Below are positions 30,665-49,612 of a DNA stretch of 64,000 nucleotides, one piece after another (the stretch's first letter is position 1; the number at the start of each line of letters is the position of its first letter). A program made the translations under genes and the position numbers. The notes under the pieces are model-generated. The model was given only the letters and a program-made list of their open reading frames with translations. It did no database searches and was not told the DNA's origin. Source of the stretch: Paradesertivirga mongoliensis (lineage in GTDB: Bacteria; Bacteroidota; Bacteroidia; Sphingobacteriales; Sphingobacteriaceae); assembly GCF_024436395.1 (NCBI RefSeq), contig NZ_JAFMZO010000002.1, forward strand, positions 868,001 to 932,000. The letters run 5' to 3'.

Positions 30665-31687
30665 CTACAGGGATCCACGTTGAATTAATCTGTATGCGTT
30701 ACTTATGGGCAAAACTTGATTCTGTAAAATAAGCTGGGCTGCTGTCTCTCCCAGTGCCTCAAAATTGCCGGTTACCACGGTAATGTCTAGCAACTCATTT
30801 AATACACTATCCTGTAACGAAATAAGGCCTATATCTTTTCCTCTCAGGTAAAGCGAGTTCCGAAGTTTTCTGGTAATATCTGCAAGGTGGGATTCGGTGT
30901 ACACAATATAAACTTCCCCTTTATTTAAACTAACACCCTCTAAGCAAGATTTAATCACTAAGCTTTTTGAATAGGTTACACAGAACTTTTTAAGGCCTTC
31001 GCATATATAACTGAGCTGATTCACAGTGTCAGGAACTATAAGTACTATACCTCGATACCTGTCAAATAGATCGCTATGTGAACTAAATGCCTCAAAAACA
31101 TCCTCGCTAAAATCCCGGACAATATTAATGCAATTAAGTGTGGTTGAAGATGATATTCCATCTAAAACAATAATCTTATTTACAGGAATCCCCCCTAATG
31201 CAGATTCAAACTCACCCTCCATAATAGTATCTGGAGGCGGAGGCACAATCACATAGAAATCATACTTCCCAAGACTGGACAACGCAACTTCGTTCAAAAG
31301 AACCGGATCATTGTAATGAATCTGGAGATCTACCTCAAGAATATTGCCCAACTTTCTCGAGAAAGCAGAATATATTTCTCTGTTATAAGAATCTAACTTA
31401 TCCACGACCATCAATATCCTCTTTGCAGATACAATAGCTTTTGAAACATAATTCCCCTTTCCAGAGACTGAAAAAATATAGCCCTGACGCTGCAGTTCCC
31501 GATAAGCCTTTTCCACAGTATCCTTTGATACTTTATGTTGCTTGCTGAATTCACTAATCGATAGTAGCCGCTGGTGACTTTTCAGGTTTTCAACCTCTAT
31601 GTCTCGCTTAATTTTTCGAACGATCTGGTCGATTTTCGTGACCGAACTATCAGAATCTATGGTTAATTCACGTGTAGGATGCATCAT
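30665..31687 (-). CDS. GntR-type regulator with LacI-like sensor domain
   Basis: Transcriptional regulator of 340 residues. The N-terminal winged helix (about 15-85) is GntR-like: IVRKIKRDIEVENLKSHQRL, LSISEFSKQHKVSKDTVEKAYRELQRQGYI, then SVSGKGNYVS in the wing. The rest (about 90-335) has the alternating beta/alpha pattern of a periplasmic-binding-protein-like sensor (RILMVVDKLDSYNREIYSAF; KDIGLISLQDSVLNELLDITVVTG), as in AraR-type Bacteroidota regulators. It ends normally (AYRLIQRGSL). The effector is probably a sugar. It stands alone between decayed sequence and a 630-bp gap, so its targets cannot be assigned from operon structure. Confidence 0.85.
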   Translation of the reverse strand: MMHPTRELTIDSDSSVTKIDQIVRKIKRDIEVENLKSHQRLLSISEFSKQHKVSKDTVEKAYRELQRQGYIFSVSGKGNYVSKAIVSAKRILMVVDKLDSYNREIYSAFSRKLGNILEVDLQIHYNDPVLLNEVALSSLGKYDFYVIVPPPPDTIMEGEFESALGGIPVNKIIVLDGISSSTTLNCINIVRDFSEDVFEAFSSHSDLFDRYRGIVLIVPDTVNQLSYICEGLKKFCVTYSKSLVIKSCLEGVSLNKGEVYIVYTESHLADITRKLRNSLYLRGKDIGLISLQDSVLNELLDITVVTGNFEALGETAAQLILQNQVLPISNAYRLIQRGSL

Positions 31688-32315: not shown

Positions 32316-34208
32316 TTACTGAAATGTGAATGGCAAATACCAGTTTTTGGGGTCCATCAACTTCGATTCAACAGCGTTGGCAGTACCGATATCACCTGCT
32401 GCTCTAAATTTCTCCGCCACCCGCTTCGCCAAAACAGATGGGTTATTTTGCCTTCGTGCAATCCTTACCAGATCTTGCCAGCGATGACCTTCAAAAGCTA
32501 ATTCAAGCGCAGCTTCGTCTAATATCTTGTCTTCCATATCGCGCATAAGCCCTTCCGAATCAATAACAGGCCGCTCAACAATAGGCTTATCACTTGCAAC
32601 AAACCTGTCGCTTGCAGGACCGCTCATATCGAAAAACTTAGCTGAATCAACCCGTAATATAGGCAGCCCTACCCGCAAACGTATACCTCGGTGGTTAGCA
32701 AACTGATTTCTGAATTGTCCTGGAAAGTCTGCATCTACACCGTCATAGTCGAAAGGATAAGGATAAGGGGTACGCATTACCTGACGTACATCCCTCTTGG
32801 TACCTCTTTTGGGCCAGTCAGTAGTAAATGATCTGCCAGGATTATGCTCGCTATACAATATGGAACCTTGATACGGATCGAATATCTCACTTAAAGGATA
32901 AGAAAGAAAAGAATAGGCAAGTCTGTTCTTTCCGTCACGGTTGGCAGCCTCTGCAATTCTCATGTGCAGATCTGCTGCCCGGTTGATATACCATATTCCT
33001 GTTTTTTCAAACGGCTTTCTGGGGTCATAAACTCCAAGAAATTTTCTTACTACCGGCTGACCGCCCTGTATCACATAGGAAGCATCTAATCCTCTCAAAT
33101 CATAGGGAGAGCCGTCTTCCCTGGTAGCGTCCTCCCACTTCTTTATAATAAGCGTTGAAGGCTTTAACTGGTAAGATCCATTTGAATATGAAAACAAATC
33201 AATAAAAGGATTTTCAGGTTTGAAATCCTTATGAAAAGGGAGGGACCAAATCCATTCCTGGTTATACCCCGGTTTAGATTCACTTCCCGTATTATACGCA
33301 TCGGAAAACATATTTTTCCACCGCCCATAGCTGTAGTGGGTTTCGGCTGAACTTTCGCCGGCTGTTACGGTCCAATGCGTCCGATTTTGAGCTGCAGCAC
33401 CTGCCCCGGAAGTTACGTTATCACGCATGATCTCTCTAAATTCCGTTGCAGCCTCATCGTATCTATTTTGCCAAAGAAACAGTTCACCCAAAAACATCCG
33501 GCGATAAATAAACAACTTAGCCGCTTGATAACCGTCAATGCTCACAGGGTTGGTAGATGTGCCCGAAGGTACTGTAACTGTACTTATACCCGTCTGGTAT
33601 TGTTTTCGTAATGGCAGACTCCTTGCAAAATCACCTAATTGCTCAAGCAGTTGATCAAAAGTCAGGCGGGGAAACAAGGCAGTATTCGAAAGATCATCAA
33701 TCTTCTCTATCGGCTCGGTTACATAAGGAATAGTTCCGTAGTGTAAGCCTAACTGCAAGTAAATCCATGACCTTAAACACCCTATATCCGAATAGCGTTC
33801 CTCATAATCTACACGACTTATGATGCCTTCATCCCGTAATCGTTTAAGGTTCTTTAAAACGTCATTACAGCTTAAAATTACCTCATAAAAAGGTTTTGGA
33901 TTAATATAAGGGTTAGAAGGCGAAACATTATGCGTGCTAAGCTCCTTCAAATAACGGTCAGACTTAAAAGTTACATCCATTAAATCGGCCCGCAATTCGT
34001 TCAAAATAACATAGCGATCCGCTAATTTCAAGAACCTGCCGTACACAGCAAACACCGCTGCGTCTACATCGGAAACACTTCCATAGACCTGATCAGCCTC
34101 TAGTACTTCCTTCGGGGCAATATCGAAAGTATTCTTACATGATACCGAACTCATAGCCAAAGCGGCTGGCAGTATGAGTTTACATAGAACACGTGATTTA
34201 AATTTCAT
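32316..34208 (-). CDS. RagB/SusD-family lipoprotein, large
   Basis: Surface glycan-binding lipoprotein of 630 residues, partner of the SusC gene 13 bp upstream. The lipoprotein signal peptide ends AMSSVSC (lipobox Cys about residue 24). The SusD N-terminal helix pair is visible (IAPKEVLEADQVYGSVSDVDAAVFAVYGRFLKL), as is the C-terminal motif KILDEAALELAFEGHRWQDLVRIAR. It is longer than the usual 480-560 residues, with extra sequence in the middle (about 250-480). It is the last gene of the seven-gene operon; a strong terminator follows. Confidence 0.9.
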   Translation of the reverse strand: MKFKSRVLCKLILPAALAMSSVSCKNTFDIAPKEVLEADQVYGSVSDVDAAVFAVYGRFLKLADRYVILNELRADLMDVTFKSDRYLKELSTHNVSPSNPYINPKPFYEVILSCNDVLKNLKRLRDEGIISRVDYEERYSDIGCLRSWIYLQLGLHYGTIPYVTEPIEKIDDLSNTALFPRLTFDQLLEQLGDFARSLPLRKQYQTGISTVTVPSGTSTNPVSIDGYQAAKLFIYRRMFLGELFLWQNRYDEAATEFREIMRDNVTSGAGAAAQNRTHWTVTAGESSAETHYSYGRWKNMFSDAYNTGSESKPGYNQEWIWSLPFHKDFKPENPFIDLFSYSNGSYQLKPSTLIIKKWEDATREDGSPYDLRGLDASYVIQGGQPVVRKFLGVYDPRKPFEKTGIWYINRAADLHMRIAEAANRDGKNRLAYSFLSYPLSEIFDPYQGSILYSEHNPGRSFTTDWPKRGTKRDVRQVMRTPYPYPFDYDGVDADFPGQFRNQFANHRGIRLRVGLPILRVDSAKFFDMSGPASDRFVASDKPIVERPVIDSEGLMRDMEDKILDEAALELAFEGHRWQDLVRIARRQNNPSVLAKRVAEKFRAAGDIGTANAVESKLMDPKNWYLPFTFQ

Positions 34209-34221
34209 ATTTAATTTTATA

Positions 34222-37200
34222 TTATAATCCTACTTTAACACCAATTTGAATCGTTCTGAATTGTGGTTCCACTCCTACATCTATTCCCTGATGGAAAACA
34301 CTGGTGGTTGCACTAAATTCAGGATCGTACCCAAGGTACTTACTGAAAGTTACAAGGTTATCAGCACTACCATAAACCCTTAACGTTTTGAAGTACTCAG
34401 ACTTGATTCTGAAATTGTAAGCCAGAGCCAGGTTCCTCATTCTCAGGTAAGAACCATCTTCAATCCAGCGGTCAGAAAAACGTGAATTCATCGCAGGGTC
34501 GCCCAATGCTGCACGGGGTGTGTTTGTAACGTGTCCGTCTGCGCGCCATCTGTTTTCGGCACTTACCAATTGATTTTGATATCCTGACATTGATTCAAGG
34601 ATATTTCGTGTGCCATTATACACGTCATTTCCATAGCTGAAGGTGAACATGGCGTTTAATGACCAGTTTCTATAATTAAAACTGTTACCAAACATACCTG
34701 TAAAGTCAGGGTTAGGATTACCGATAACTACGCGGTCATCACTATCGATAATTGCGTCTCCGTTCATATTCACAAAACGAACGTCGCCTCCCTGAAGAGT
34801 CACAATCGACTCGTCTGGCAATCTGTTCGTTAAGCCGGAAGCATTGGCCTCAGCTGTAGACGAATAAACTCCATTGCTTTTATATCCGTAAAACAAGTTT
34901 ACAGGGCTCCCCACGCGGGTAAGGATTGTTGCCCCGCCGTAATTGGTTTCGAAACTGTTAGAGGCTAAACGAGTAACTTTATTTCTATAACTGCTTATAG
35001 TAATGGCCATATCCCATTTAAACTTCCTATCCAGTATTCTCGAATTAAGAGATAAGTCAACACCATTTGTTTCGATGCCGCCTGAATTGTTAACAGAAAA
35101 GTCAAAACCTGTAACCGGATTAACAGCATCATACATAAGCAGATTTTTTGCATTGTTACGATAAATATCCACAGACAGGTTTAAGCGCTCGTTAAACAAA
35201 GCCAAATCCAGTCCTCCATTTAACTTCTCAATGGTTTCCCATTGTAAGGCTGTGTTTCCAACATTTCCACGGGCATAGCCTTGAAGTCCAAAAAGATTTT
35301 GTGTAACATAATATGATCGGGCAGTGTAGTTTCCTATATCATCATTCCCGACAACCCCGTAACTCAATCTTAGTTTGAGCAGGTCAACCGCATTAACATT
35401 TGCCATAAAGTTCTCAGATGACACCAGCCATGCAGCACCCACAGCCGGCATTACAGCCAGTTTATTTCCATTAATTGTTAACGCATTTCGTACGTCTCTT
35501 CCAAACCGTGATGATCCGTCGACCGCCAGGTTTAAGGAAAGGAGATAACGGTTAAAAAGGGAGTAATCAACGTTAGCGTAGGTATTTAACCAACGCATGT
35601 CTCCGATACCACCATTGATCTCGCGCAAATTTGGCGAACCACTACTTAAACTTCTGTAATCGTCTGTAGACGAATTATATGTAACACCTAAGTCGGCTTC
35701 ATACTTATCCTGTTTAAGTCTGGCACCTATTGAGGCATCAACCTTGTGGATATTATTGAAGTTCTTTTGATAAGAAAAACGTGTATCGTTAAACAAAGCA
35801 AAAAGTCTGTTTGTATTTGACCCTATTGTGTTCAACAAAAGCCCCTTCTGTGTAGTATCTGCAGACACTCCCCTTTGAGGAATAAACAGTCGGTCGCGGA
35901 TTTTATCATAAGATACCCCGAACTGAGAGGATAGTGAAAGCCTTTCAGAAAAGTTATAGTTCATTTTAAGCGCAGCAATTACCCGATAATTGGTATTCAC
36001 GGCATCCATATCCTCTATCAAGGCGGCAGGATTGCTCACACCAAATATATCTGTATCGGCAAGGTTCGGAGACTGCTCTCCAAGTGATCCTATAACATTA
36101 GGATGTAGAAATGGGGCCTTTACCACGCCTAAATAAGTTGCAGATGTTTTAAAGGCCTGCCCCTGGTTAGCCAACTTGTGATTGCTACTTGAGAACGACA
36201 AATTAGTAGAGGCGCTAAATTTTCTGGATAAGTTAAAATCTGCGTTAAATCTGGTAAAATACCGGTCTAAACTAGTGCTTTTTATCGCTCCTGCATTATT
36301 TACGTAACCCAGCGAAAGGTTATACTTTGCAATATTATCACCGCCGCTCACATTCATGTGGTAATTCTGATTATATCCGGCATTAAAAACCTGGTTATGC
36401 CAGTCGGTATTCATGTGATACTTATAATATTCAAGATTACCGACCTGACTATCTCGCATATAAGGGGCGGAATAAATCTGAGCATTTGACTGACCCGAAG
36501 ATTGCATGACACCCGCGAGATAACTTCGATAAGAATACGCATCCATTACCGGTAAACGATCTATTGAAGAATTGAATCCGGCTGACGATGAGAAATCAAT
36601 CTTCGTATTTTCGGAATTAGGACGCCGTGTAGTAATAAATAGCACACCATTTCCGCCCTTTGTACCATACAAAGCAGCCCCGGCATCTTTAACTAAGGAT
36701 ACATCTTCAATATCCTTTATGTCAATGTTCTCAAGAGAGTTATTCGAAAATCCTGAAAAAAGCGACCCAACCTGATCGTTATTGTAGATCATACCATCTA
36801 CAACAATTAATGGTTGGTTGCTGGTATAAAACGAATTTACACCTCTTAGAAACATGTTTGCCCCAATAGAAGGTGTACCCGAACGGCGAACCACATTAAG
36901 TCCGCTTAGTTTTCCCTGAAGGTAAGTATCTGGCGTCTCTTTACCTCCCGCGCTTACCGGGTCATTAAACCTCACCGCAGATACGGCAAAAGGGGTAGTC
37001 GTTTTAGATATTGGTCCTGATGGAAGAGTTACATCTCCATAAACCGTATTGAAGCCATCTTCATGAAGCTTTACTATAAAATCCAACTTCCCCTTTAAAG
37101 CTATCTCCTTGTATTGAAAACCCTCGGCTGTAATCGAGATAACAGAAGACAGATTAGGAACAGAGACCATGGCTTTTCCCCTATCATCTGATATGGCAGC

Positions 37201-37428
37201 TGAATAACCCGCCACAGTAATCCTTGCCCCCGGCACGGCTGCGCCTGAACTGGCGTCCAAAATGGTAATGTTAGCCCGGGGACCGCTTGTTGCCCGTGTT
37301 ATCGAAGCAACAGAGTCTGTTTGACTTTGGGTTAAAGAGTCTGTTTGCTGTGCGAATACCGAATAAGATCCGGTCAAGAAGAATCCTGCTAGCAACACCG
37401 TATTAACCGACTTTTTAAAAATTTGCAT
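34222..37428 (-). CDS. SusC/RagA-family TonB-linked outer-membrane protein
   Basis: TonB-dependent glycan importer of 1068 residues. A signal peptide (to about 27, VFAQ) and a low-complexity Ser/Thr/Gln-rich linker precede a carboxypeptidase-regulatory-like domain that is less standard than usual (ITILDASSGAAVPGARITVAGY). The plug has QGKLSGLNVVRRSG and the SusC signature PLIVVDGMIYNNDQ with KDAGAALYGTKGGNGVLFITT. A barrel with WSLNAMFTFSYGNDVYNGT and a C-terminal IGVKVGL follows. The SusD partner lies 13 bp downstream and a FAS1 lipoprotein 24 bp upstream. Confidence 0.93.
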   Translation of the reverse strand: MQIFKKSVNTVLLAGFFLTGSYSVFAQQTDSLTQSQTDSVASITRATSGPRANITILDASSGAAVPGARITVAGYSAAISDDRGKAMVSVPNLSSVISITAEGFQYKEIALKGKLDFIVKLHEDGFNTVYGDVTLPSGPISKTTTPFAVSAVRFNDPVSAGGKETPDTYLQGKLSGLNVVRRSGTPSIGANMFLRGVNSFYTSNQPLIVVDGMIYNNDQVGSLFSGFSNNSLENIDIKDIEDVSLVKDAGAALYGTKGGNGVLFITTRRPNSENTKIDFSSSAGFNSSIDRLPVMDAYSYRSYLAGVMQSSGQSNAQIYSAPYMRDSQVGNLEYYKYHMNTDWHNQVFNAGYNQNYHMNVSGGDNIAKYNLSLGYVNNAGAIKSTSLDRYFTRFNADFNLSRKFSASTNLSFSSSNHKLANQGQAFKTSATYLGVVKAPFLHPNVIGSLGEQSPNLADTDIFGVSNPAALIEDMDAVNTNYRVIAALKMNYNFSERLSLSSQFGVSYDKIRDRLFIPQRGVSADTTQKGLLLNTIGSNTNRLFALFNDTRFSYQKNFNNIHKVDASIGARLKQDKYEADLGVTYNSSTDDYRSLSSGSPNLREINGGIGDMRWLNTYANVDYSLFNRYLLSLNLAVDGSSRFGRDVRNALTINGNKLAVMPAVGAAWLVSSENFMANVNAVDLLKLRLSYGVVGNDDIGNYTARSYYVTQNLFGLQGYARGNVGNTALQWETIEKLNGGLDLALFNERLNLSVDIYRNNAKNLLMYDAVNPVTGFDFSVNNSGGIETNGVDLSLNSRILDRKFKWDMAITISSYRNKVTRLASNSFETNYGGATILTRVGSPVNLFYGYKSNGVYSSTAEANASGLTNRLPDESIVTLQGGDVRFVNMNGDAIIDSDDRVVIGNPNPDFTGMFGNSFNYRNWSLNAMFTFSYGNDVYNGTRNILESMSGYQNQLVSAENRWRADGHVTNTPRAALGDPAMNSRFSDRWIEDGSYLRMRNLALAYNFRIKSEYFKTLRVYGSADNLVTFSKYLGYDPEFSATTSVFHQGIDVGVEPQFRTIQIGVKVGL

Positions 37429-37452
37429 ATATATAAGTCTATTATTGGATAA

Positions 37453-38955
37453 TTAATTTACGACAGGAACCAGTTTGATATAATCAAATACAATGGAATT
37501 TAAGCCAGTAGTACTAGCGTCATTACTGACCATGAATACAAATTCATTGCGAAAATTGGAAAATGTATATTCTCCAAGATAAACATCATCATAAACCGGC
37601 TCAAACACCCGCGGATTTGATGGGGGATTAGTGACAATTTCCCTGGTTTCAACAAACTTATAAGGCAAGGCATCTGTCGCGTTGAATCTCTTAAAGGCCA
37701 CCCTTTGACGGAAATGTACAGGGGCAACCGCAGGGGGTATTGGCACCAAATCAAAATCTCTTACCGCCCTCCAATAAACCTTATACTTCACACTATTCAC
37801 ACGTCTCTCATATCTGAACCAGGCTAGCGCGGCGGCGAAATTGTCACCTCTAACCTGAGTGAATATAGAAACTCCATCAGGGTTCCTTCTTGAAGTAGTA
37901 AAGTTGAATCTGCCTGCATCATTTGTCACTTTAACCACCCTCTCGGATTCACCCTCAATTACAATGGTTTTCAGTTTGTTAGGAATTTTGTAATCAATGC
38001 GATTCATCACATGCACAATCCCGTTGCTTACGCGATGGCTTGATACAACTGCAGATTTATCAAGATGGAACTTAACTCCGTTAGTTGATGTAAGCGAGTC
38101 AGGTAAACTTTCTTTCGTATATATTCCCCTGAAAACCAAATCGCTAATAATAGCGCGGCGAGTCTCCCGTGTGGTTGAATCTGTTGTGCTTGTGCTATAA
38201 TACGGCTTCAACTTCACTTCTTCGGCTAAAAACGCTTCATTAGTTAATATCACATAAGTGCTCAAACTATCTTCGCGATCAATCCCTGTAAAATTGAGAT
38301 ATGAGTTAACAATAACGCTATCAGTCCCTTCCTTGTAGATAGGTTTACCTGATGGTTCATAACCTAGCAAAACGGCCGTTGCAGGATTAAACTGTTTTTC
38401 ATTCAACGACTCCACAAAATCTTTCTGCACGGTCGCGGTATTGTGATCTTTTAGAAATTCATAAATATTAGGCTTCCGTTCCATTCTCCCCGAGATAATA
38501 TGAAGAACTCCGTTAGCCACGTATTGATTAGGTTTCGTAATTGTTATTTCATCTATAGTATTAGCTGTAAAAATGAGGTTCTTTCCATTCAATGCGGTGA
38601 GGGTCAAAATGGGGTTTGGCGCATTGGTCAAATGAGAACTATTAGCAATGTGGTTGCCAATAAAAACGTCCAGCCTGGCTGAATCTGCAACGATCGCAGG
38701 ATCCAATGAAGCTAAGGCATCATTGGAAGGGGCCCAAACGGTAAAGTTAAGCGACGATGACAAAATCTGACCATAGCGCGACTTTGCGAGCAAATCGCTG
38801 AATACACTAAGCTCGGGCTCAGCAGCAATCTTTTGGGTCAAGGTTGTTTTTAATAAAGGATTAACTTCATTAACATCCTCCCATTTGTCCTTGCAACCGG
38901 TAATAATCAGGAAAAGAAAACAATATATAAAAATATATCCTTTGAGTTGGTTCAT
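37453..38955 (-). CDS. Fasciclin (FAS1) domain lipoprotein
   Basis: Probable outer-membrane lipoprotein of 500 residues with a lipobox at FLIITGC (Cys about 21). One clear FAS1 domain is at about 40-160 (LSVFSDLLAKSRYGQILSS, FTVWAPSNDALASL, NGVLHIISG) and a second, diverged one at about 160-330 (NGIVHVMNRI). The C-terminal third is beta-rich and carries a jelly-roll-like pattern ending FDYIKLVPV, suggestive of a carbohydrate-binding or DUF5108-like module. It lies between another FAS1 gene and a SusC gene in the operon. A surface glycan-binding role, like SusE/F in position, is inference. Confidence 0.8.
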   Translation of the reverse strand: MNQLKGYIFIYCFLFLIITGCKDKWEDVNEVNPLLKTTLTQKIAAEPELSVFSDLLAKSRYGQILSSSLNFTVWAPSNDALASLDPAIVADSARLDVFIGNHIANSSHLTNAPNPILTLTALNGKNLIFTANTIDEITITKPNQYVANGVLHIISGRMERKPNIYEFLKDHNTATVQKDFVESLNEKQFNPATAVLLGYEPSGKPIYKEGTDSVIVNSYLNFTGIDREDSLSTYVILTNEAFLAEEVKLKPYYSTSTTDSTTRETRRAIISDLVFRGIYTKESLPDSLTSTNGVKFHLDKSAVVSSHRVSNGIVHVMNRIDYKIPNKLKTIVIEGESERVVKVTNDAGRFNFTTSRRNPDGVSIFTQVRGDNFAAALAWFRYERRVNSVKYKVYWRAVRDFDLVPIPPAVAPVHFRQRVAFKRFNATDALPYKFVETREIVTNPPSNPRVFEPVYDDVYLGEYTFSNFRNEFVFMVSNDASTTGLNSIVFDYIKLVPVVN

Positions 38956-39019
38956 GTGTTCTGTATTAAAAAAAATCTGAAATTAGATCCGAAGTTACCT
39001 CCGGATCTAATTATATTAA

Positions 39020-40732
39020 TTAGTCGGGCTCGCCCTTTTGTTGAATACGTCCGTTTGCCCAGAAGCGAGGCCAAATTTGCTCTTGTCTTTCAGGAATAAA
39101 ATGAATCATATCCATGTAATAATTGTTATGATATGAGAAACCGCCAAGTTCCTGTCTTAGTATCTGCGTACCGCCTTCAGTTACTTCCACAACTCCTAAA
39201 AGGCGTCCCATTCCATCATTCATAGGGGTAGTAACCGGGCCCATGTAACGTTTCCAGCCGTTCTGTTCCCGCTGCTCATCGGTCCAGTCGTCTGTTTTAC
39301 TCTCGTCCCTCATATTCACCCCCCGGTTCAGCCTTACGCCGTTAAAATAGAACGTCATGGCGCCGTTCGATCCGGCTCTTAAATAGCACACCCACAATTT
39401 ATATCTTCCTGGAGCGAGATACGGCGTGTGATACTCTATATAATTTGCGCGGGCATTTCCGGTTCTAGGGTCGGCGAGTTGCGTACGCAATACATCACCC
39501 CTGAAACCTTTACTGCCCATCCAGTCGTACACCATGGCATAATCGTTCCACTTTAAATTAGCCATGGGTTTTGACTTTTTAAGATCCCAGGTTATATCGG
39601 CGCTTCCAAAGCCTGCCTGGGCTCTGAATTCAGGTTGGTCTGCAACATCCCAGTATAGGGCTTGCGCAGGGCGGAAAACAATTTTATAGTGTTGGTTCAC
39701 AGCATGAACAACCCCGTTTCTGGCCGACAGGTCACCTGTCTCACGAAGCACCGGAGCACCTGGATGTACCACACCATTTATGGTTACTTCATCGATAACT
39801 ATCTCTGTCTTACTTTTAGTTTTAGTATTTATACCTTTTACAGCAAGGGTAGGTAAGCGCACGGGATTTACAATATCCACAAAATAATGTGCCCCTTTTG
39901 TGATATGATAGGCAACATAAAGATTTAAGCTATCGGCGGGATCAAGAGGATTACCAGGTTTTGAAGGATCCTCAAACTTTGAATATCTTTGAACTAAATC
40001 GTCTAAATTATTAAAGCCAGCAGTCTTGAGCGCTTCATCCGTTTCAGCAAAAACTGTTAGATACTGCTCTGAAGCTTCGGGATTAGTTTTTGGATTTTTG
40101 TTTAACCTCTCAAAATAGCCTGTCAGTTTAAGTGCCGCAGTAAAGATGCTGTATTTAGGATCGGCCTCCAGAGTTTGTGCCACAGTAAGCGGCGCAGGCT
40201 TCATCACCTTGTCAATCACGTGAATAACACCGTTACCTACGCTAATATTCCCTGTAACCAGTTTTGCCTGTTTATCAATTTGGATACTCGATGCACCATT
40301 TACACTCACGGCCCCGGTAACCAGATATTGACCGTACATTGTGGCATTCCGAAGCTTACCATCAGTAAAATCCGGTGTTTTGATAGAATCAGGGACTACG
40401 TGAAATGTAACGATATCCAAAAGCTCTTCTTTGCTCATCTGCTCTACTGAAGATAAGCCCTTCTCGTTTAAAAATGCCTTAACAGCGTCGTTAGTAGGCA
40501 AAAACAAGGTATAAGCGCCATAAGCCTGGAGAAAGCTGCTGGTTTCGGAGAGCTCTAAAACCTTTCTGAACTCCGAAAACTGGTCCGGATACTTATCCAG
40601 ATAGCCGGTGATATTAACATCATTTGAAGTGAGGTCTACTATAGAGGCCTTCTTACAACCGACTGCGATCATCATCATTATCCCTAATAAAAGGGCGATG
40701 AAGGGGTTTGAAATTAGTTTTTGGGTTTTCAT
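39020..40732 (-). CDS. Fasciclin (FAS1) domain lipoprotein
   Basis: Lipoprotein of 570 residues with signal peptide and lipobox MMIAVGC (Cys about 26). Two FAS1 domains: about 35-170 (FSEFRKVLELSETSSFLQAYGAYTLFLPTNDAV, NGVIHVIDKV) and about 175-350 (YSIFTAALKLTGYFERL, NGVVHAVNQHY). The C-terminal part (about 370-560) is a beta-sandwich-like module (APGRYKLWVCYLRAGSNGAMTFYFNG; HNNYYMDMIHFIPE) of the carbohydrate-binding type. It lies 10 bp after a SusD gene and 64 bp before the next FAS1 gene. It resembles the 37453 protein in architecture, so the pair may have arisen by duplication. Confidence 0.82.
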   Translation of the reverse strand: MKTQKLISNPFIALLLGIMMMIAVGCKKASIVDLTSNDVNITGYLDKYPDQFSEFRKVLELSETSSFLQAYGAYTLFLPTNDAVKAFLNEKGLSSVEQMSKEELLDIVTFHVVPDSIKTPDFTDGKLRNATMYGQYLVTGAVSVNGASSIQIDKQAKLVTGNISVGNGVIHVIDKVMKPAPLTVAQTLEADPKYSIFTAALKLTGYFERLNKNPKTNPEASEQYLTVFAETDEALKTAGFNNLDDLVQRYSKFEDPSKPGNPLDPADSLNLYVAYHITKGAHYFVDIVNPVRLPTLAVKGINTKTKSKTEIVIDEVTINGVVHPGAPVLRETGDLSARNGVVHAVNQHYKIVFRPAQALYWDVADQPEFRAQAGFGSADITWDLKKSKPMANLKWNDYAMVYDWMGSKGFRGDVLRTQLADPRTGNARANYIEYHTPYLAPGRYKLWVCYLRAGSNGAMTFYFNGVRLNRGVNMRDESKTDDWTDEQREQNGWKRYMGPVTTPMNDGMGRLLGVVEVTEGGTQILRQELGGFSYHNNYYMDMIHFIPERQEQIWPRFWANGRIQQKGEPD

Positions 40733-40742
40733 ATCCTAAAAT

Positions 40743-42239
40743 TTATTTGTAAAACGGATTTTGAACTAAGTTTTTATTTGCCTGCATATCCCTGAAAGGA
40801 ACCGGGAGATAATGACTGTTGGTGTCACTGAGTTTTATAGCCACACTCTGGCTCAGATTACTTGGCACGTTTAAGGTAGCCCTGGCTATCAACAGATCGA
40901 GATTTTCGTAATCATTCCGTTTGGCAAACCTCAATAGGTCAAACCACCTCTTACCCTCAAAAGCAAATTCACGCCCTCTTTCATCAAATACGTATTGTGC
41001 AAGGCTTGATGAATTATTTAGATCAGGATCTTGCTTAGTTACGTCTAAAGCACGTGCCCGATCTCTCACCTGGTCGATTAAATCCATAACCGCCTGACCG
41101 TTACCAGGTATGTAAGCGAGAGCCTCGGCCTTCATCAACAGCACATCCGCATACCTGTAAATGTTATACTTCGCAATAGACTGGTTGGCCTCTCTCGGAT
41201 CTTTGTCGTTTTTACCGGTATACTTCCAGATAGACAGGTCTGTAGCATGAAAAGATACACCTTCTGCCCTGAGATCTTTCGCCTCCGGATCATTAATATC
41301 CTTTTTGAAAATCTCATCCAGAGCCGCTGTACTGGCAGTTAAGGGCTTTGCGGCAGCCTGAAACATACTATAGAATGGATTTGGCCTTTCAACAGTGTAT
41401 TGAAAGGCAAAAATGGTCTCGTCAGAATTACCTTCAAAGTATAAATCGTTGAAGAAAGTAGCGCCATCACCCGGAACTAACCTGAATCTTCCAGACTCAA
41501 TTACTTTGTTACATGCCTGCAGGGCTTCTTCATATCGATCAAGCCATAGATACACATCTGCCTGAATAGCGAAGACTGCAAATTTCGTTATCCGCCCCTT
41601 GTCAAATGAAGGATTTGCAACAAACGTTTCAACTGCGTGCTCTTCAGCAAACTTAAGATCCTCTAATATCTGGGCCGCAACCTCGTCAGGACCACTCTTT
41701 GGAAGACTCATTACCTGTGTATCTTCTGATACACCTTGCAACTGCAGGGGCACATCGCGGTACGATCTAAGCAGATAAAAATATAACAGCGCTCTTATTG
41801 CCTTAACTTCCGCCACCGATTCATTCACTTCCTTCATACTAACTGTCGGATCATTTTGAGACACACCAGCAGCGTTGTCAATCACCTGGTTACAGTTGTT
41901 AATCACCCGGTAAATACCAGACCAATCTGCAATTGAATTGGTGGGTAAAAGATTTCCGTTACCTAGTTGAATTTCATCATTACTTGGCTTACCTGGAACC
42001 TGAGCAACCATTACAAGGTCGGCCCTCAACTCACCCCAGCGAAACAACTGGCTCACAATATTATTGTCAACCAAAGAGATATAGGTGCCTGTCACTGCAC
42101 TTTGCAGTTGTTCTTTAGTCTTCCAGAATTCCTGCTTTATGAGCCCGTCCTGTGGCTTCACATCCAGCCACTTCTGACAGGATGCAGAGGATACCACTAT
42201 TAAAGCAAGTAATATTCTATATATGATATTTTTATACAT
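40743..42239 (-). CDS. RagB/SusD-family lipoprotein
   Basis: Surface glycan-binding lipoprotein of 498 residues, the usual SusD length. The lipobox is at VVSSASC (Cys about 21), followed directly by QKWLDVKPQDGLIKQEFWKTKEQLQSAVTGTY, the classic SusD start. The central YNIYRYADVLLMKAEALAYIPG and C-terminal FDERGREFAFEGKRWFDLLRFAKR are textbook, and it ends NKNLVQNPFYK. It pairs with the SusC gene 16 bp upstream. Confidence 0.95.
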   Translation of the reverse strand: MYKNIIYRILLALIVVSSASCQKWLDVKPQDGLIKQEFWKTKEQLQSAVTGTYISLVDNNIVSQLFRWGELRADLVMVAQVPGKPSNDEIQLGNGNLLPTNSIADWSGIYRVINNCNQVIDNAAGVSQNDPTVSMKEVNESVAEVKAIRALLYFYLLRSYRDVPLQLQGVSEDTQVMSLPKSGPDEVAAQILEDLKFAEEHAVETFVANPSFDKGRITKFAVFAIQADVYLWLDRYEEALQACNKVIESGRFRLVPGDGATFFNDLYFEGNSDETIFAFQYTVERPNPFYSMFQAAAKPLTASTAALDEIFKKDINDPEAKDLRAEGVSFHATDLSIWKYTGKNDKDPREANQSIAKYNIYRYADVLLMKAEALAYIPGNGQAVMDLIDQVRDRARALDVTKQDPDLNNSSSLAQYVFDERGREFAFEGKRWFDLLRFAKRNDYENLDLLIARATLNVPSNLSQSVAIKLSDTNSHYLPVPFRDMQANKNLVQNPFYK

Positions 42240-42255
42240 GGTTACTATTAATTAA

Positions 42256-45200
42256 TTAAAACCCTAAATTTAAGCCCAGAACAAAAGTTCTTGCTGGTGG
42301 AGTAACTGCATTATCTGTTGGGTAATCAAAAGGACCTGTAACAGGTCTTGAACCAACATCAGGATTTTGCCCTGTATACTTTGTCCATGTGTAAACGTTT
42401 TCTACAGTTGCGTAAGCACTTGCTCTTTTCAGACGTATCTTATCGACGATCTTTTGATTAAGAGTATAATTCAAAGTTACCTGACGCAAGCGAACAAAGC
42501 CCGCATCCTCAACGAAACGGTCAGAACCAAGCCAGTTAAAACCGGCATTCAGCAAAGAACGAGGCATATCTGTAACATCACCGGGATTTCTCCATCGGCG
42601 CAGAACAGCAGTACTTTGATTGGCATATGAATGCATATTGACAGTATTCATCTTAGCCTCATTAACCAACTGGAAACCTAAGCGGTAGGTAAAGAAAGTG
42701 GTCAGGGTCAATTTTCCTTTATACCCAATTCTTTGCCCAAAGCCTCCCGTTATCTTAGGAACTCCATTTCCCAGGTACACCTGATCCATATGGTTTATGT
42801 TTCCATCATTATTAACGTCCACATAAGCAACATCTCCGGGCTGAAATACATAATCTGTTGATGGATAGTTGAAGCGCATGTATATAGTCTCTCCGGCTGG
42901 TGACACAATCGGCTTACCATGCACATCTCTAGCAATGGTAGCATCAACATCTTTATAAACACCTCTGGTTTTAAACCCGTAAAACGAACCGTACGGATTG
43001 CCTAGTTGAAGGAAGGTTTTGTACTGTCCATTACCTTGAGACGATGCGTTACCGTTATCCCTGGGGTAAAACTCAGATATTTCGTTAATTACATTTTTGT
43101 TGCTGGCAAAGTTGAAATCGAAATTCACATTCCAGGTTCTTGATTTTATAGGATTTGTTTGCAACAACAACTCAAAGCCACTGTTCGTCATCTTGCCATT
43201 ATTGCCCGACACAGTGCTGAAGCCTGATGTACTTGGAATCGCTAGACCGTTAAGAAACATGTCATGGGTAATGTTATTGTACGCATCAGCAGCAACCTTA
43301 ATCCTGCTCTTGAATAACCACAAATCGAAGCCGACGTTCAGGCCGTTTGTGCGTTCAGGGCGTAGCGAGGTAATCTGAAGGTTAGAATTTAATACACCAG
43401 CTACCCCCATATATGCTCCGGCATAGTTCATGGTTGATGTCGGACGATAAATACTGAAAAAACTTCCGCTAGGCGGGTTTCCGGAAGAACCGTAACTTAC
43501 GCGGAAGCTGATGTCGTCAATCCAGTTATAATCAAGATTCTTGATGAACTTCTCATCCGAAACATGCCATTTAGCTGATAAAGAAGGATATGTTGTAAAC
43601 CGATGTTTCGGACTGATACGGGAATCACCGTCGGTTCTAAAACCCAGATTAAAATCATAGCGCTTCAATAGCGTATAAGCTGCGGAAAAATATGCTCCCA
43701 CATCCTTGGTTACGCCCATTGATCCCTGCAAGGAATTGTTCAGATTTGTGCGGCCTCCGTTCGTTGGGTCCTGAAATAGCAGAGACGCAGTATTTGATAC
43801 GGTCATCGAGCTGGAGATATTGTCATTTTTTCTGGCCTGAAGGGAGGAAAACAACGTCAACGCATGATTCTCGCTTTTAAATTTAGGTGAATAGGTAAGA
43901 TTGAACTGTCCGTAGGTATTAAATTGATCCCCGTCAGAATCGGAAGCCCGGTTAACAACGTCTTCGGTGAAAGGTCTTCCAGTGGCTATCTGGGGTAAAA
44001 AATTATTTGTTTTAGTGTTATTAATATCAAAACGAACCTGCATTGTTGCCAGCAAGGCAGGAGTTATATTATAATTAAGCCTAAATGACGGAACGAGACG
44101 CTCTCCAATAGATTTACTGCTGGCGGCTTCCGCCATGGCGAGTGGATTAAAAGTGTTTGGGTACTGCCCCTCGATATTCCTTTCCGGTGAAAAATACCTG
44201 GAAGTCAGGTTTCCGAATTCGTCATACAGATAAGGGCTCATGTTAGGCATCTTGGTATACGCTTCCCCTCGAGGATTTGTATAATTCATCAGGGTATTGG
44301 TATGGGAGTAAGAAAAATCAGAGCTGAAGCGAATTTTACTAGAAACATTATAATCCAGGTTCACCCGCGTTCTGATCAAATTGGCGCCGGTACCAATTGT
44401 GGTACCTTGCTGATCCGAATATCCTACAGAAACGCGGTATTGGGCTTTTTCCCCCCCACCGCTTAAACTAACATCGTGCTGGTGAGAATAAGCCACTTGG
44501 GTAATTGTCCCCAGCCAGTCTGTATTCCGGGAATAATTATAAAAATATGCCGGCTCGTAAGGATCATACGAAAACTCCTTGTTAGTTGTCAGATTCATCG
44601 GGATACCTGTTGCATTTCGAACCATCTCTGGTATGAGCACCGAATACTCGTCGCCTGTCAAAAGCGGAAAAGTAGGCGGCTGCTTCTGCATCGTTCCTCT
44701 GAAGGTATAACCAACCTGAGGTTTACTAAATGCTCCCCTCTTGGTTGTGATTACCAACACTCCGTTAGCCGCTCTTGAACCCCACATCGCTGTCGAAGCT
44801 GCGTCTCTCAACACAGTAATGGTGTTGATGTCCTGAGGCGATATACTCAGAAGTTGTGCAAACCCCTGCTCGTCAGCATTTCCGAAGTTAAAATCAGATG
44901 GGATAGTAGTTTCAAACGGCATACCATCTACTACGATTAAAGGATTGGTATTTCCGTTCAGGGTAGAAGTACCCCTGATCCGGATAGACATACCAGCACC
45001 GGGGTCTCCGGATAAAGTACCAATGTCAACACCCGGCATCCTTCCCTGAAGGGCCTGATCAATCGATTGAGCTGAAAGTTCTTCAAGATCCTTTGCGTTT
45101 ATGGTGGTCGTAGCCATCGTATTGTGTTTAGGATCAATGTTCAAAAGGCCGTTATTGAATGTCCGGGCACCTTGAATAACCACCTCAGTAAGTTGACGTG

Positions 45201-45510
45201 ACGATGGTTTCAACGATACATTAATCACAGTCCGGCTATTGATAGCTACGGTAAGAGGCTGATAGCCAAGACTCGAAAACTTTAACCGGTTTGAAGGCGA
45301 TATATTTTTTATTGCGAAATTCCCGTCAATATCTGTTACGAAGGAAGATACAGTCCGTCCGTCTTTATCAATCTCCACAACTGATGCACCTATCACAGAC
45401 TCCTTATCTTTTTCATCAATTACTTTCCCCCGAATGGTGGTCTGGGCCATAGCAATTGTGCTGCTCAGCACAAAGGCGAGGAAGAAAAACCAATTTCTAC
45501 AAATTTTCAT
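42256..45510 (-). CDS. SusC/RagA-family TonB-linked outer-membrane protein
   Basis: TonB-dependent importer of 1084 residues. It has a signal peptide (to about 22), a carboxypeptidase-D-like domain (TTIRGKVIDEKDKESVIGASV) and a linker. The plug carries QGRMPGVDI, RIRGTSTLNGNTNPLIVVDGMPFE and RDAASTAMWGSRAANGVLVITTKRG. A 22-strand-type barrel follows, ending RTFVLGLNLGF. It is the first SusC of the operon, 24 bp after the large FAS1 gene and 16 bp before its SusD. Confidence 0.95.
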   Translation of the reverse strand: MKICRNWFFFLAFVLSSTIAMAQTTIRGKVIDEKDKESVIGASVVEIDKDGRTVSSFVTDIDGNFAIKNISPSNRLKFSSLGYQPLTVAINSRTVINVSLKPSSRQLTEVVIQGARTFNNGLLNIDPKHNTMATTTINAKDLEELSAQSIDQALQGRMPGVDIGTLSGDPGAGMSIRIRGTSTLNGNTNPLIVVDGMPFETTIPSDFNFGNADEQGFAQLLSISPQDINTITVLRDAASTAMWGSRAANGVLVITTKRGAFSKPQVGYTFRGTMQKQPPTFPLLTGDEYSVLIPEMVRNATGIPMNLTTNKEFSYDPYEPAYFYNYSRNTDWLGTITQVAYSHQHDVSLSGGGEKAQYRVSVGYSDQQGTTIGTGANLIRTRVNLDYNVSSKIRFSSDFSYSHTNTLMNYTNPRGEAYTKMPNMSPYLYDEFGNLTSRYFSPERNIEGQYPNTFNPLAMAEAASSKSIGERLVPSFRLNYNITPALLATMQVRFDINNTKTNNFLPQIATGRPFTEDVVNRASDSDGDQFNTYGQFNLTYSPKFKSENHALTLFSSLQARKNDNISSSMTVSNTASLLFQDPTNGGRTNLNNSLQGSMGVTKDVGAYFSAAYTLLKRYDFNLGFRTDGDSRISPKHRFTTYPSLSAKWHVSDEKFIKNLDYNWIDDISFRVSYGSSGNPPSGSFFSIYRPTSTMNYAGAYMGVAGVLNSNLQITSLRPERTNGLNVGFDLWLFKSRIKVAADAYNNITHDMFLNGLAIPSTSGFSTVSGNNGKMTNSGFELLLQTNPIKSRTWNVNFDFNFASNKNVINEISEFYPRDNGNASSQGNGQYKTFLQLGNPYGSFYGFKTRGVYKDVDATIARDVHGKPIVSPAGETIYMRFNYPSTDYVFQPGDVAYVDVNNDGNINHMDQVYLGNGVPKITGGFGQRIGYKGKLTLTTFFTYRLGFQLVNEAKMNTVNMHSYANQSTAVLRRWRNPGDVTDMPRSLLNAGFNWLGSDRFVEDAGFVRLRQVTLNYTLNQKIVDKIRLKRASAYATVENVYTWTKYTGQNPDVGSRPVTGPFDYPTDNAVTPPARTFVLGLNLGF

Positions 45511-45534
45511 TTTTTATACGTTTACTTCGTTCGT

Positions 45535-47733
45535 TTAATTAGTATATAACAATATCCGGTCGATAGAATGTATCAGCGCTCTGTCTGCAAGGTTGTTGCT
45601 GCCCGACAAAACTAAACTGGCAGTATTTCCAAGATTATCAGTTACCACCATAGCATTGGGAGTAGTTTCAATTCTAATATAAGTATCCGGGCTTTCTGGA
45701 TTTGCCGGGTCATCATACACTGTTGACATCTGGCCCTGTTTAAATGGATCGCCATCGGGAGCAACTGTTTCCTTATCTACAAAATGATACAGTATAAAAC
45801 GATTGATTTCAGCCTGTTCAGCTAGATTGGCAGACCGGGTTGTAGTTGGAATCCCTGTAATTTTATTTCCGGGCAGTTCGCCACGCTTTACAGCTTCCAT
45901 GATTGCCTGGTTAGTTGGTATTAGCACCGTATATTTGACGCCCTGAGAAACACCTGCAATAGAACCATTGCTGTTCCACAGGGTGGATTTGCTTAAAAAA
46001 TCGAAAAAGTAGCCATATAAACTAGGTTTAGCTGCAGCAAGCTCCTGAATTCTAGTACCCAAACGCTTTGTTCCGTAGGCCAGCACTCCTGAAACCGTAA
46101 ACACGGGGCCATTCACGGTTTGCTCTGTCTTAGTAATAGTTAATGGTGTATTGGTTTCTATATTTCCTGACGCCCAAATCTTGTTATTATCATATATCAA
46201 GTATTCCTCCACTTCGCTTTCTCCCTTTGATCCCTTTAATACTCCCTTCCCGGATAAATCGGTAATGTTGGCGAAAGAATTGTCGATTACAGACATATGA
46301 ATAAGCCTCAAGAATTGGTTTCTGGCATTGTTATCTACGATTGTAGCACCAGTCGCAGGATTTCTCCAGCTGTAGTTATTAATCGCTTCGTTGAATGTGT
46401 AACCGGCCTCCAGTAACTGCTCATCAGACTGCATAATTAATCCGAACTTATCCAGCGGTTCAATTATCTTATTTCTAAGGTTTCTATCTAATCCCCTAAC
46501 CTGCAACAGATAATTCCGGTTTAGATATGGCTTAGAGTAAACCGTACGAAACACATTCGCTTCCTGTATCGCATCAATACCGTAAAAATTTCCATTACTT
46601 AGCATCTTCGTCTCAAGAACTTTGCTGGGATCAAAAGTGATCTCCTCTGCCTTTGCATTGGCGGTGGTTGTCAGCGCACTTGGCCAGAGCGCTCTGTTCC
46701 AAAGGTGTGAATCAATGAAATGCCTTCTCATGGCTGGCGAAAGCTCCGGTCCCCAATCTTTCAGAAGATACTCCTTGTATGCTATTACATGTTCGTTGGT
46801 CGGAATCATCGCACTCCAGAAATTCGCCTGAGCGTCGGAACTTCCGGTCGATAGAAAATTCTCATTGTTCGGAGAGAAAGACATATTTGCATACCGCTTA
46901 ACAAATACGGTATCGTCCGATCCCGAAATTGCCTTGTAACGAGTCTGCAATTTGTAATTAGTTGTCAATACGGCATCTTGCTCAAGTATTTTTTTAAATT
47001 CACTGTACTCGGGCTTGGATGACAAATACTCCATAATATTAACAGGAGGCAGTAGCACTTTATCAACCGCGTGTATCATACCATTCTGAGCTACTATATC
47101 GGATTGCGTGACACTTGCGTCCACTACATTAAAGCCGGAAAACGTTGCATTGGGGAAGAACGTCTTATAATCCTCCAAAGTAATATTGGTAGCAGCGAAA
47201 AGAGCGTCAGTAAAAAACGGCACATATTTATTATTGTTATCGGCCTCATTGTAGTTTCCATTCGAATTTGTTCCCAGATATTTTTTGCCGTCTTCCTCAT
47301 AAACGAAGTCATAATAGGTACTCTTCTTCCTGAATGACAGTCCCGGTTCCAGAATTTTTTCCGGACTTTCGAATGTGCTGATGTTATCTTTTCTGTATGA
47401 GTTATAGAGTGTATTATATCTAACAATAGTTTCAGCCGTCTTCTTGTCTATGTCATTAATACTAGACAGGCCCTTTAATTCCGCATAAGCCTGAAACGCT
47501 TCATTAGTAGGTGCAAATAGTGTCCAGTAGCCGGCCTTTCCTAAAATATCTTTATAGCCAGCCTTGTCGATCACTGCCAGCATACTGGTGTAACCGTTAG
47601 CCTGCAGCTGATCATAAATTGGAGGTGCAAGATTTGATGGTCTGCCATAAAACTCATCCAGCTCCTTCTTATTACAGCCGGCAAATAAAATGAGTAGCAA
47701 AAGGTACAATAAACCAGGTATTGATCTCTTCAT
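45535..47733 (-). CDS. Large multi-FAS1 lipoprotein, first gene of PUL operon
   Basis: Lipoprotein of 732 residues; signal peptide with lipobox LLILFAGC (Cys about 20). I count about four fasciclin-type segments: about 40-215 (GYTSMLAVIDKAGYKDILGKAGYWTLFAPTNEAF; NGMIHAVDKVL), about 220-400 (YSEFKKILEQDAVL; AMIPTNEHVIAY), a diverged one at about 400-560, and about 570-730 (YGYFFDFLSKSTLW; YTVLIPTNQAIMEAV; NRFILYHFV; ALIHSIDRIL). It leads the seven-gene operon that ends at 32316. FAS1 domains act in adhesion and glycan contact in other organisms; here their position around SusC/SusD suggests an accessory surface glycan-binding protein. Confidence 0.82.
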   Translation of the reverse strand: MKRSIPGLLYLLLLILFAGCNKKELDEFYGRPSNLAPPIYDQLQANGYTSMLAVIDKAGYKDILGKAGYWTLFAPTNEAFQAYAELKGLSSINDIDKKTAETIVRYNTLYNSYRKDNISTFESPEKILEPGLSFRKKSTYYDFVYEEDGKKYLGTNSNGNYNEADNNNKYVPFFTDALFAATNITLEDYKTFFPNATFSGFNVVDASVTQSDIVAQNGMIHAVDKVLLPPVNIMEYLSSKPEYSEFKKILEQDAVLTTNYKLQTRYKAISGSDDTVFVKRYANMSFSPNNENFLSTGSSDAQANFWSAMIPTNEHVIAYKEYLLKDWGPELSPAMRRHFIDSHLWNRALWPSALTTTANAKAEEITFDPSKVLETKMLSNGNFYGIDAIQEANVFRTVYSKPYLNRNYLLQVRGLDRNLRNKIIEPLDKFGLIMQSDEQLLEAGYTFNEAINNYSWRNPATGATIVDNNARNQFLRLIHMSVIDNSFANITDLSGKGVLKGSKGESEVEEYLIYDNNKIWASGNIETNTPLTITKTEQTVNGPVFTVSGVLAYGTKRLGTRIQELAAAKPSLYGYFFDFLSKSTLWNSNGSIAGVSQGVKYTVLIPTNQAIMEAVKRGELPGNKITGIPTTTRSANLAEQAEINRFILYHFVDKETVAPDGDPFKQGQMSTVYDDPANPESPDTYIRIETTPNAMVVTDNLGNTASLVLSGSNNLADRALIHSIDRILLYTN

Positions 47734-48226: not shown

Positions 48227-49612
48227 ATGATTTCTATGTCCAACTTTTTTAAACTTCTGGTAAGTACCACAACTGTGCTCACCTTTTACTCCCAAGACGT
48301 CAAGGCCCAGGTAGCCAAGCCCACGGAAATTCAAATAACTGCTTACAGAACTACCATTTTTGCCGATGGCAAAGACGAAGTTCTGATTGTTGCCAAATTA
48401 ATTGATAATAAAGGGAATGAAGTGAGCGGTGTTAGCAAGCCCGTTTCTTACAAAGTTTCTGGCGACGCTAAAATCATAAGCATCAACGGCGTGAATGCTG
48501 AGAGCATGCGTACTGATACCACCTGGAAAGCGAACCTGGCAGGAAAGGCTAACATCATATTAAAGGCTGGAAAATCGCGATCCATTATCAAATTTAAGGC
48601 TAATGGCGATAGCCTTAGGGAAGGAGCTACTGAAATCCATAGCATACAGCCAGGAAAACCTACTAAGGTTACAACGGCGAGCTATAAGCCCAAAACCATT
48701 TCAGATAAGATATTGGGCGCTGACATTTCTTTCTTGCCGCAAAACGAAGCAAGGGGCGCAAAATACAGTGACAATGGAGTTGAAAAGGATGCTCTGGTTA
48801 TTCTAAAAGATCACGGAATTAATTATATACGTATCCGCTTGTTCAATAACCCTTCTCAACCGAGAGGCTATTCCCCGAACCGCGGGTTTTGCGACCTTGA
48901 AAACACCAAGAAACTAGCTAAGCGAGTAAAAGCTGCAGGAATGAAATTTCTCCTTGATTTTCATTACAGCGATAACTGGGCCGATCCGCAGCAGCAAAGA
49001 AAGCCTCTGGCATGGGTAGGGAAGGATTTTGCAGCTATAAAAGATTCTGTTGAGGCATTCACTAAATATGCGATGCAGCAACTTAAAGACCAGGGAACTG
49101 AGCCTGATATGGTTCAGGTGGGTAACGAGGTTAACCACGGCATGATTTGGCCGGATGGACATATAAACAATCTGGATAGTCTTGCACAATTATTTTATGC
49201 GGGCTTTAAGGGTGTTAAGGCAGTTAGTCCTAATGCTACTATTATGCTACACGTAGCTCTTGGAGGACAAATAGAAGAATCGGAATTTTTCTATGATGCG
49301 ATGGCTAAACGCAATGTCCCTTACGATATTATCGGCTTATCTTACTACCCTAAATGGCATGGAACTCCGGAAGATCTAAAAAAGAATATGGCCGCCCTTT
49401 CCAAGAAGTACAACAGACAAATTATGGTTGCGGAATATAGCCAAATGAAGCCTCTCGTGAACGAAATAGCGTTCACAGTACCCGGAGGCAAGGGTATAGG
49501 CAGCTTTATTTGGGAGCCCCTAAGCTGGGGTGAAGCGGTATTCGACAGAACTGGTAAGTCAAATGAGTATCTGCACCAGTTTACTCCAATCTCAGAGAAA
49601 TATTTAAAATAA
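48227..49612 (+). CDS. GH53 endo-beta-1,4-galactanase with N-terminal Ig-like domain
   Basis: Exported arabinogalactan endo-beta-1,4-galactosidase of 461 residues. A signal peptide (ending VKAQ) and an Ig-like domain (about 30-135; TIFADGKDEVLIVAKLIDNKGNEV, VSYKVSGDAK) precede the GH53 barrel from about 160 (LGADISFLPQNEARGAKY, YIRIRLFNNPSQPRGYSPN, FLLDFHYSDNWADPQQQ). The acid/base Glu is in QVGNEVNHGMIWPDG (about residue 300) and the nucleophile in MVAEYSQMKP (about 402). It should cut the beta-1,4-galactan backbone or side chains of type I arabinogalactan and pectin. It is divergent from the SusC/SusD operon. The Ig-like domain resembles the C-terminal one of the GH2 enzyme at 27299. Confidence 0.93.
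   Translation: MISMSNFFKLLVSTTTVLTFYSQDVKAQVAKPTEIQITAYRTTIFADGKDEVLIVAKLIDNKGNEVSGVSKPVSYKVSGDAKIISINGVNAESMRTDTTWKANLAGKANIILKAGKSRSIIKFKANGDSLREGATEIHSIQPGKPTKVTTASYKPKTISDKILGADISFLPQNEARGAKYSDNGVEKDALVILKDHGINYIRIRLFNNPSQPRGYSPNRGFCDLENTKKLAKRVKAAGMKFLLDFHYSDNWADPQQQRKPLAWVGKDFAAIKDSVEAFTKYAMQQLKDQGTEPDMVQVGNEVNHGMIWPDGHINNLDSLAQLFYAGFKGVKAVSPNATIMLHVALGGQIEESEFFYDAMAKRNVPYDIIGLSYYPKWHGTPEDLKKNMAALSKKYNRQIMVAEYSQMKPLVNEIAFTVPGGKGIGSFIWEPLSWGEAVFDRTGKSNEYLHQFTPISEKYLK

Follow-up and report, generated by a model that had tools for sequence, protein, structure and literature searches.

The rhamnogalacturonan I (RG-I) polysaccharide utilization locus (PUL) of Bacteroides thetaiotaomicron contains two SusCD pairs, BT4164/65 and BT4168/69, together with a surface glycan-binding protein (SGBP), BT4167, reported to bind RG-I (reviewed in PMC8002723); in a transcriptome table (PMC10434189), BT4164-69 comprise a SusC, a DUF5108 protein, hypothetical proteins and a TonB receptor. 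The galactan PUL BT4667-BT4673, as described in the same review, has one SusCD pair, one SGBP (BT4669), a hybrid two-component system (HTCS) regulator, a GH53 and a GH2 enzyme (PMC8002723), and a figure of a Gramella paper includes, as an abbreviation, fasciclin (FAS1) within a PUL (PMC4891872). Here we describe an operon of Paradesertivirga mongoliensis (GCF_024436395.1, contig NZ_JAFMZO010000002.1) in which three FAS1 lipoproteins stand around two SusC/SusD pairs, an arrangement that recurs as a conserved module tied to plant pectin. The window analysed is the stretch of 64,000 nt from 868,001 to 932,000, and all coordinates are window positions.

Layout of the operon and its closest relatives

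The operon lies on the minus strand, reading from 47733 to 32316 in the order FAS1a-SusC1-SusD1-FAS1b-FAS1c-SusC2-SusD2, with intergenic gaps in gene order of 24, 16, 10, 64, 24 and 13 bp:

45535-47733, minus: FAS1a, 732-aa lipoprotein of FAS1 repeats, operon gene 1 (PF02469 1.7e-23, 3 stretches)
42256-45510, minus: SusC1, TonB-dependent transporter (Plug 5e-20, CarbopepD_reg_2; PDB SusC homolog 8aa4 1.5e-96)
40743-42239, minus: SusD1, surface lipoprotein lid (SusD_RagB 1e-31)
39020-40732, minus: FAS1b, 570-aa lipoprotein, two FAS1 domains and a predicted C-terminal sandwich like that of a carbohydrate-binding module (CBM) (PF02469 5.8e-30, 2 stretches)
37453-38955, minus: FAS1c, 500-aa lipoprotein, FAS1 region and a predicted C-terminal CBM-like sandwich (PF02469 2.2e-12)
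34222-37428, minus: SusC2, second SusC, more divergent (Plug 8e-13; PDB 8aa4 2.7e-96)
32316-34208, minus: SusD2, second SusD, divergent (SusD_RagB 7.8e-9)

The original prediction had drawn this gene order, with gaps of 10-64 bp, from the open reading frames; coordinates, order and gaps are all as it claimed, and Pfam agrees, identifying three fasciclin proteins (83.6, 104.5 and 47.7 bits for FAS1a, FAS1b and FAS1c vs. a gathering cut-off of 22), two SusC proteins, both with Plug, and two SusD proteins, both with SusD_RagB. The tandem SusC/SusD arrangement characteristic of a PUL is thus present twice. No SusE or SusF Pfam domain was found; the FAS1 proteins gave PF02469 and otherwise only weak unrelated matches.

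The RG-I PUL (BT4145-BT4183) seems to have the same core: in its block BT4164-BT4169, going by the published annotation, two SusCD pairs flank a DUF5108 protein and the RG-I-binding SGBP. The order SusC-SusD-DUF5108 protein-SGBP-SusC-SusD, which for B. thetaiotaomicron is taken from the papers, is also that of the window and of divergent Bacteroidaceae loci with DUF5108. By analogy, BT4164-BT4169 would correspond to SusC1-SusD1-FAS1b-FAS1c-SusC2-SusD2, BT4163 is predicted to be FAS1a, and FAS1c would hold the gene position of BT4167. Unlike the RG-I PUL, the window copy stands beside GH53, GH2 and GH35 enzymes and a GntR regulator, without RG-I lyases, and its FAS1b falls below the DUF5108 model. 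With the galactan PUL it shares a GH53 endo-galactanase, a GH2 enzyme and SusCD, but differs in its second SusCD pair and its three FAS1 proteins. As with SusE and SusF, a lipoprotein gene (FAS1b) lies directly behind a SusCD pair (after SusD1), though the FAS1 plus CBM6/35-like architecture is different; the view that FAS1 lipoproteins take the usual place of SGBPs agrees with these gene positions.

It had also been held that FAS1 proteins as glycan-capture components are little described. We found no paper on a FAS1/double-SusCD module in a search from which subscription papers were mostly absent, so that this is no proof of novelty. The RG-I PUL seems to have the same layout, however, and the Gramella figure, the only mention of FAS1 in a PUL that the search turned up, shows a FAS1 gene; the architecture thus looks less unprecedented than was supposed, and its conservation is stronger than was stated.

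Conservation of the seven-gene module

A search of GTDB genomes with a FAS1b alignment yielded 80 loci, from Pedobacter, Mucilaginibacter, Chitinophaga, Niastella, Pontibacter, Belliella, Echinicola, Flavobacterium, a Prolixibacteraceae metagenome-assembled genome and others. All 72 complete loci in these other genomes have the seven genes in the same order on a single strand, with median gaps of 13-42 nt, and the remaining 8 end at contig ends and retain the order up to there; genomes of the same genus and of the same family have it as well. So fixed an order is far beyond chance, and the seven genes form a strictly conserved module in many plant-material-eating Bacteroidota. The phylum-wide count, with three candidates per genome scored, places it in at least 8 of 395 sampled genomes, which is a lower bound.

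The divergent Bacteroidaceae loci (a label taken from their relatives and gene content) have the same seven-gene order, with FAS1 plus DUF5108 as the fourth gene. Profile-profile comparison with the window family supports homology of their FAS1b along almost the entire protein (E = 7e-67), and of their FAS1c along the FAS1 part (E = 7e-30).

Mean pairwise identity across loci is 39-58%, depending on the protein, and the pairwise-distance matrices of the seven proteins correlate at 0.91-0.97; the seven genes have therefore diverged together, with shared organismal descent contributing to the correlation. PULs are usually variable in content. It is unusual among them for the order of seven genes to persist while mean protein identity is down to about 39-58%; this points to a fixed assembly, and such a module makes the question of why some PULs have two SusCD pairs directly testable.

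Predicted properties of the FAS1 proteins

FAS1a, FAS1b, FAS1c and both SusD proteins begin with lipoprotein-type signals, and in each FAS1 protein a Cys lies downstream of the hydrophobic stretch. A lipobox-like motif is found in 67/74 FAS1a, 72/80 FAS1b and 78/79 FAS1c homologues, and at least two acidic residues follow the lipid Cys in 64/74, 23/80 and 74/79, respectively. The acidic residues are frequent in FAS1a and FAS1c but not in FAS1b, and the three proteins may be exposed at the cell surface.

The original prediction had seen a carbohydrate-binding-like sandwich at the C-terminus of two FAS1 proteins and had proposed structure prediction as a check. AlphaFold2 models of FAS1b and FAS1c (mean pLDDT 89 and 91) bear it out, both having FAS1 domains followed by a beta-sandwich, at residues ~355-547 in FAS1b and ~331-498 in FAS1c. 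Foldseek relates the first part of both to periostin and TGFBIp, and the remainder to MiXBM, CBM6, CBM35 (2w1w, 2w47) and CBM36; E is ~1e-4 to 1e-7 against CBM35, CBM6 and MiXBM, all matching a beta-sandwich fold. As the Foldseek output carries no positions, the CBM matches are placed on the C-terminal sandwich from the type of fold. The matched CBM35 structure 2w47 is a complex with delta-4,5-anhydrogalacturonic acid. Though the predicted fold of the C-termini is like that of CBM35 and CBM6, Pfam CBM families had no match among 57 FAS1b and 57 FAS1c proteins, which thus do not belong to CBM35 or CBM6 by sequence. DUF5108 is matched in 32 of the 57 FAS1b relatives, the FAS1b of the window by itself giving no match to the model; in one Bacteroidaceae relative it covers residues 386-586, i.e. 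the sandwich region.

SGBPs are hard to recognise, because they have little sequence in common. If the FAS1 proteins are SGBP components, FAS1 genes within PULs could be used as markers of pectin uptake, and DUF5108 would gain a role.

Association with pectin degradation

The genes flanking the module were clustered blind to function. Recurrent clusters include GH106 rhamnosidase, PL11 RG-I lyase, a GDSL esterase that has an additional domain at its N-terminus (called CE12-type from sequence features), GH28, GH88/105, PL1-like, PL22-like (so named by eye) and PL9 proteins, as well as GH2, GH43, GH51 and HTCS and GntR regulators. When enzyme profiles derived from these same flanks were used, 56 of 76 module loci had one or more of eight pectin families, vs. 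2 of 40 control loci (Fisher p = 3e-13), the controls being the strongest SusD matches from genomes of the same set. The module is tied to plant pectin, and the link is statistically strong. Judging from the enzymes encoded beside them, most copies would serve the RG-I/homogalacturonan backbone, not galactan.

The secreted PL1-like protein (L084:18244-19539, L009:1050-2303 and other flanks) is a repeated neighbour of the module, in Bacteroidaceae too. It has no significant Pfam lyase match, and is likely a pectate-lyase subfamily missed by Pfam.

Further copies in the P. mongoliensis genome

Another contig (C1) carries three further complete copies (L009, L010 and L011), at 147-163 kb, 184-199 kb and 204-220 kb. 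They are surrounded by a pectin island of ~100 kb (C1:125-226 kb; L216, L009, L217, L010, L011, L012) with two PL11 genes, several GH28, and GH106, PL1-like, GH88/105 and CE12-like genes. The tree puts L010 and L011 inside the family clade and groups L009 together with Pontibacter/Rufibacter relatives, while the window copy has a long branch of its own. Recent duplication within the genome as the origin of all copies is not supported, since they are scattered in the tree in this way. A six-gene variant without FAS1c, comprising two FAS1 genes and two SusCD pairs, lies on a third contig (L013:3770-16308; C3:395-408 kb); the gene upstream of it matches MG2 and Plug.

Neighbours and cargo of the window copy

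Genes near the operon include the following:

48227-49612, plus: GH53 endo-beta-1,4-galactanase with an N-terminal Ig-like domain, divergent from FAS1a with 493 bp between (PF07745 6.9e-88)
30665-31687, minus: GntR-type regulator, downstream of SusD2
27299-29716, minus: GH2 enzyme, probable beta-galactosidase

A GH35 enzyme and an HTCS regulator are also near, so that GH53, GH2 and GH35 provide the neighbouring carbohydrate-active enzymes expected of a PUL; six other homologous loci likewise have a GntR-type gene in their flanks. The window copy adjoins no RG-I backbone enzymes, having galactan enzymes instead. Because it lies next to GH53 and GH2, pectic galactan appears the likeliest cargo. 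The galactan guess of the original prediction is thus supported for this copy, with its GH53 and GH2/GH35; the majority of copies go with backbone enzymes.

Proposed function and alternatives

We propose that the module is an outer-membrane machine for pectin capture and import, made up of two SusCD pumps and three FAS1 SGBPs, and that in the window copy this machine has been turned to the beta-1,4-galactan side chains of pectin instead; we put the probability of this at about 0.72. SusC1D1 and SusC2D2 would be two different import pumps, and FAS1a, FAS1b and FAS1c surface glycan-binding proteins, perhaps also a scaffold joining both pumps. The surface FAS1 lipoproteins would capture galactan or RG-I close to the pumps, GH53 would cut captured galactan shorter, both SusCD pumps would import the oligosaccharides, and GH2, perhaps with GH35, would complete the breakdown in the periplasm. 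The part of the FAS1 proteins as glycan-capture subunits is well supported, though inferred, as are galactan as the cargo, surface exposure and physical assembly.

Several points weigh against this proposal. Glycan binding by the three FAS1 proteins is argued from the CBM-like fold and the analogy with BT4167, and the identity with BT4163-BT4169 from published gene annotation and the homologous Bacteroidaceae loci, in which the C-terminal region of FAS1c gave no alignment to the window family in the profile comparison. Profiles derived from module flanks favour the module loci in the test for pectin enzymes. Finally, GH53 was found beside none of the other 80 loci (flanks of ~3 kb), and the galactan assignment concerns one locus.

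That last point also speaks for the first alternative, as do the backbone enzymes beside most homologous loci: the window copy would, like its relatives, import oligosaccharides of the RG-I backbone or homogalacturonan, and GH53 and GH2 would only trim side chains. Three other copies in the same genome, however, already sit in a pectin island with PL11, GH28, GH106, PL1-like, GH88/105 and CE12-like genes, and the window copy combines its isolated position in the tree with galactan enzymes; we regard backbone import by this copy as doubtful.

It also seems unlikely that the FAS1 proteins are mainly structural, bridging two unlike SusCD pairs with little ligand binding. The strict gene set and order and the joint divergence would suit such a bridge, as would FAS1 domains occurring as repeats, like those of rod-like human proteins, but two of the three proteins carry the predicted carbohydrate-binding-like domains.

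A role as adhesins to plant material or other cells, co-expressed but outside glycan import, is very improbable. In its favour, FAS1 domains serve for adhesion in other organisms, periostin and TGFBIp are the nearest of the solved structures, and a highly transcribed FAS1 gene of Bacteroidota has been interpreted as adhesive (PMC10199937). Unlike periostin and TGFBIp, however, whose domain fold they share, the FAS1 proteins here are bacterial lipoproteins encoded within a transporter operon; every complete locus has three distinct FAS1 genes at fixed places around its two SusCD pairs, FAS1b and FAS1c have predicted CBM-like sandwiches, and the protein at the corresponding place in B. thetaiotaomicron is described as an SGBP that binds RG-I.

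The gap between FAS1b and FAS1c

The 64-bp gap contains a strong hairpin:

38981-39012, minus: hairpin in the FAS1b-FAS1c gap, 14-bp stem followed by a T run (z = -6.7 vs. dinucleotide shuffles)

All four copies in the genome fold a hairpin at this gap, strongly in three of them (z of -6.7 for the window, -5.6 and -4.0; -1.1 for the fourth). Across 83 loci, many of them from related genera and not fully independent, 25 fold at or below -15 kcal/mol there vs. 5.8 expected from dinucleotide shuffles, and the gap is the longest in the module (median 48 nt vs. 14-24); the other gaps have little or no hairpin excess over shuffles. A plain terminator is rejected as a general explanation, since among the four copies the T run is found only in the window, where the hairpin may be a partial terminator; a conserved RNA motif is rejected as well, the four hairpins having no common sequence. 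Scans for sigma-70 and Bacteroidetes-type promoters gave counts not above those of shuffles.

The single transcript of about 15 kb that the original prediction envisaged is therefore only partly supported, the hairpin dividing the operon 4+3. Its recurrence suggests that it marks an expression boundary between the two parts, and a reasonable reading is that it may serve to produce the first four proteins and the last three in unequal amounts. A further-reaching model, which we hold only tentatively and consider rather unlikely, is that all seven proteins make up a single obligate hetero-complex, a dual-transporter machine for pectin common to Bacteroidota; in it FAS1 proteins would bridge unlike SusCD pumps, the hairpin would set the 4+3 subunit ratio, and paralogues within a genome would be separate machines for backbone and side chains.

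Two cases from other genomes deserve mention. [Flexibacter] sp. ATCC 35208 (NZ_MTKN01000023.1) has two modules of equal score in opposite orientation, ~20 kb apart (L027 and L028), which represent either a recent inverted duplication or an assembly effect. In Arachidicoccus ginsenosidivorans (L047) SusC2 is broken into three open reading frames, and this copy may be decaying or contain sequencing errors.

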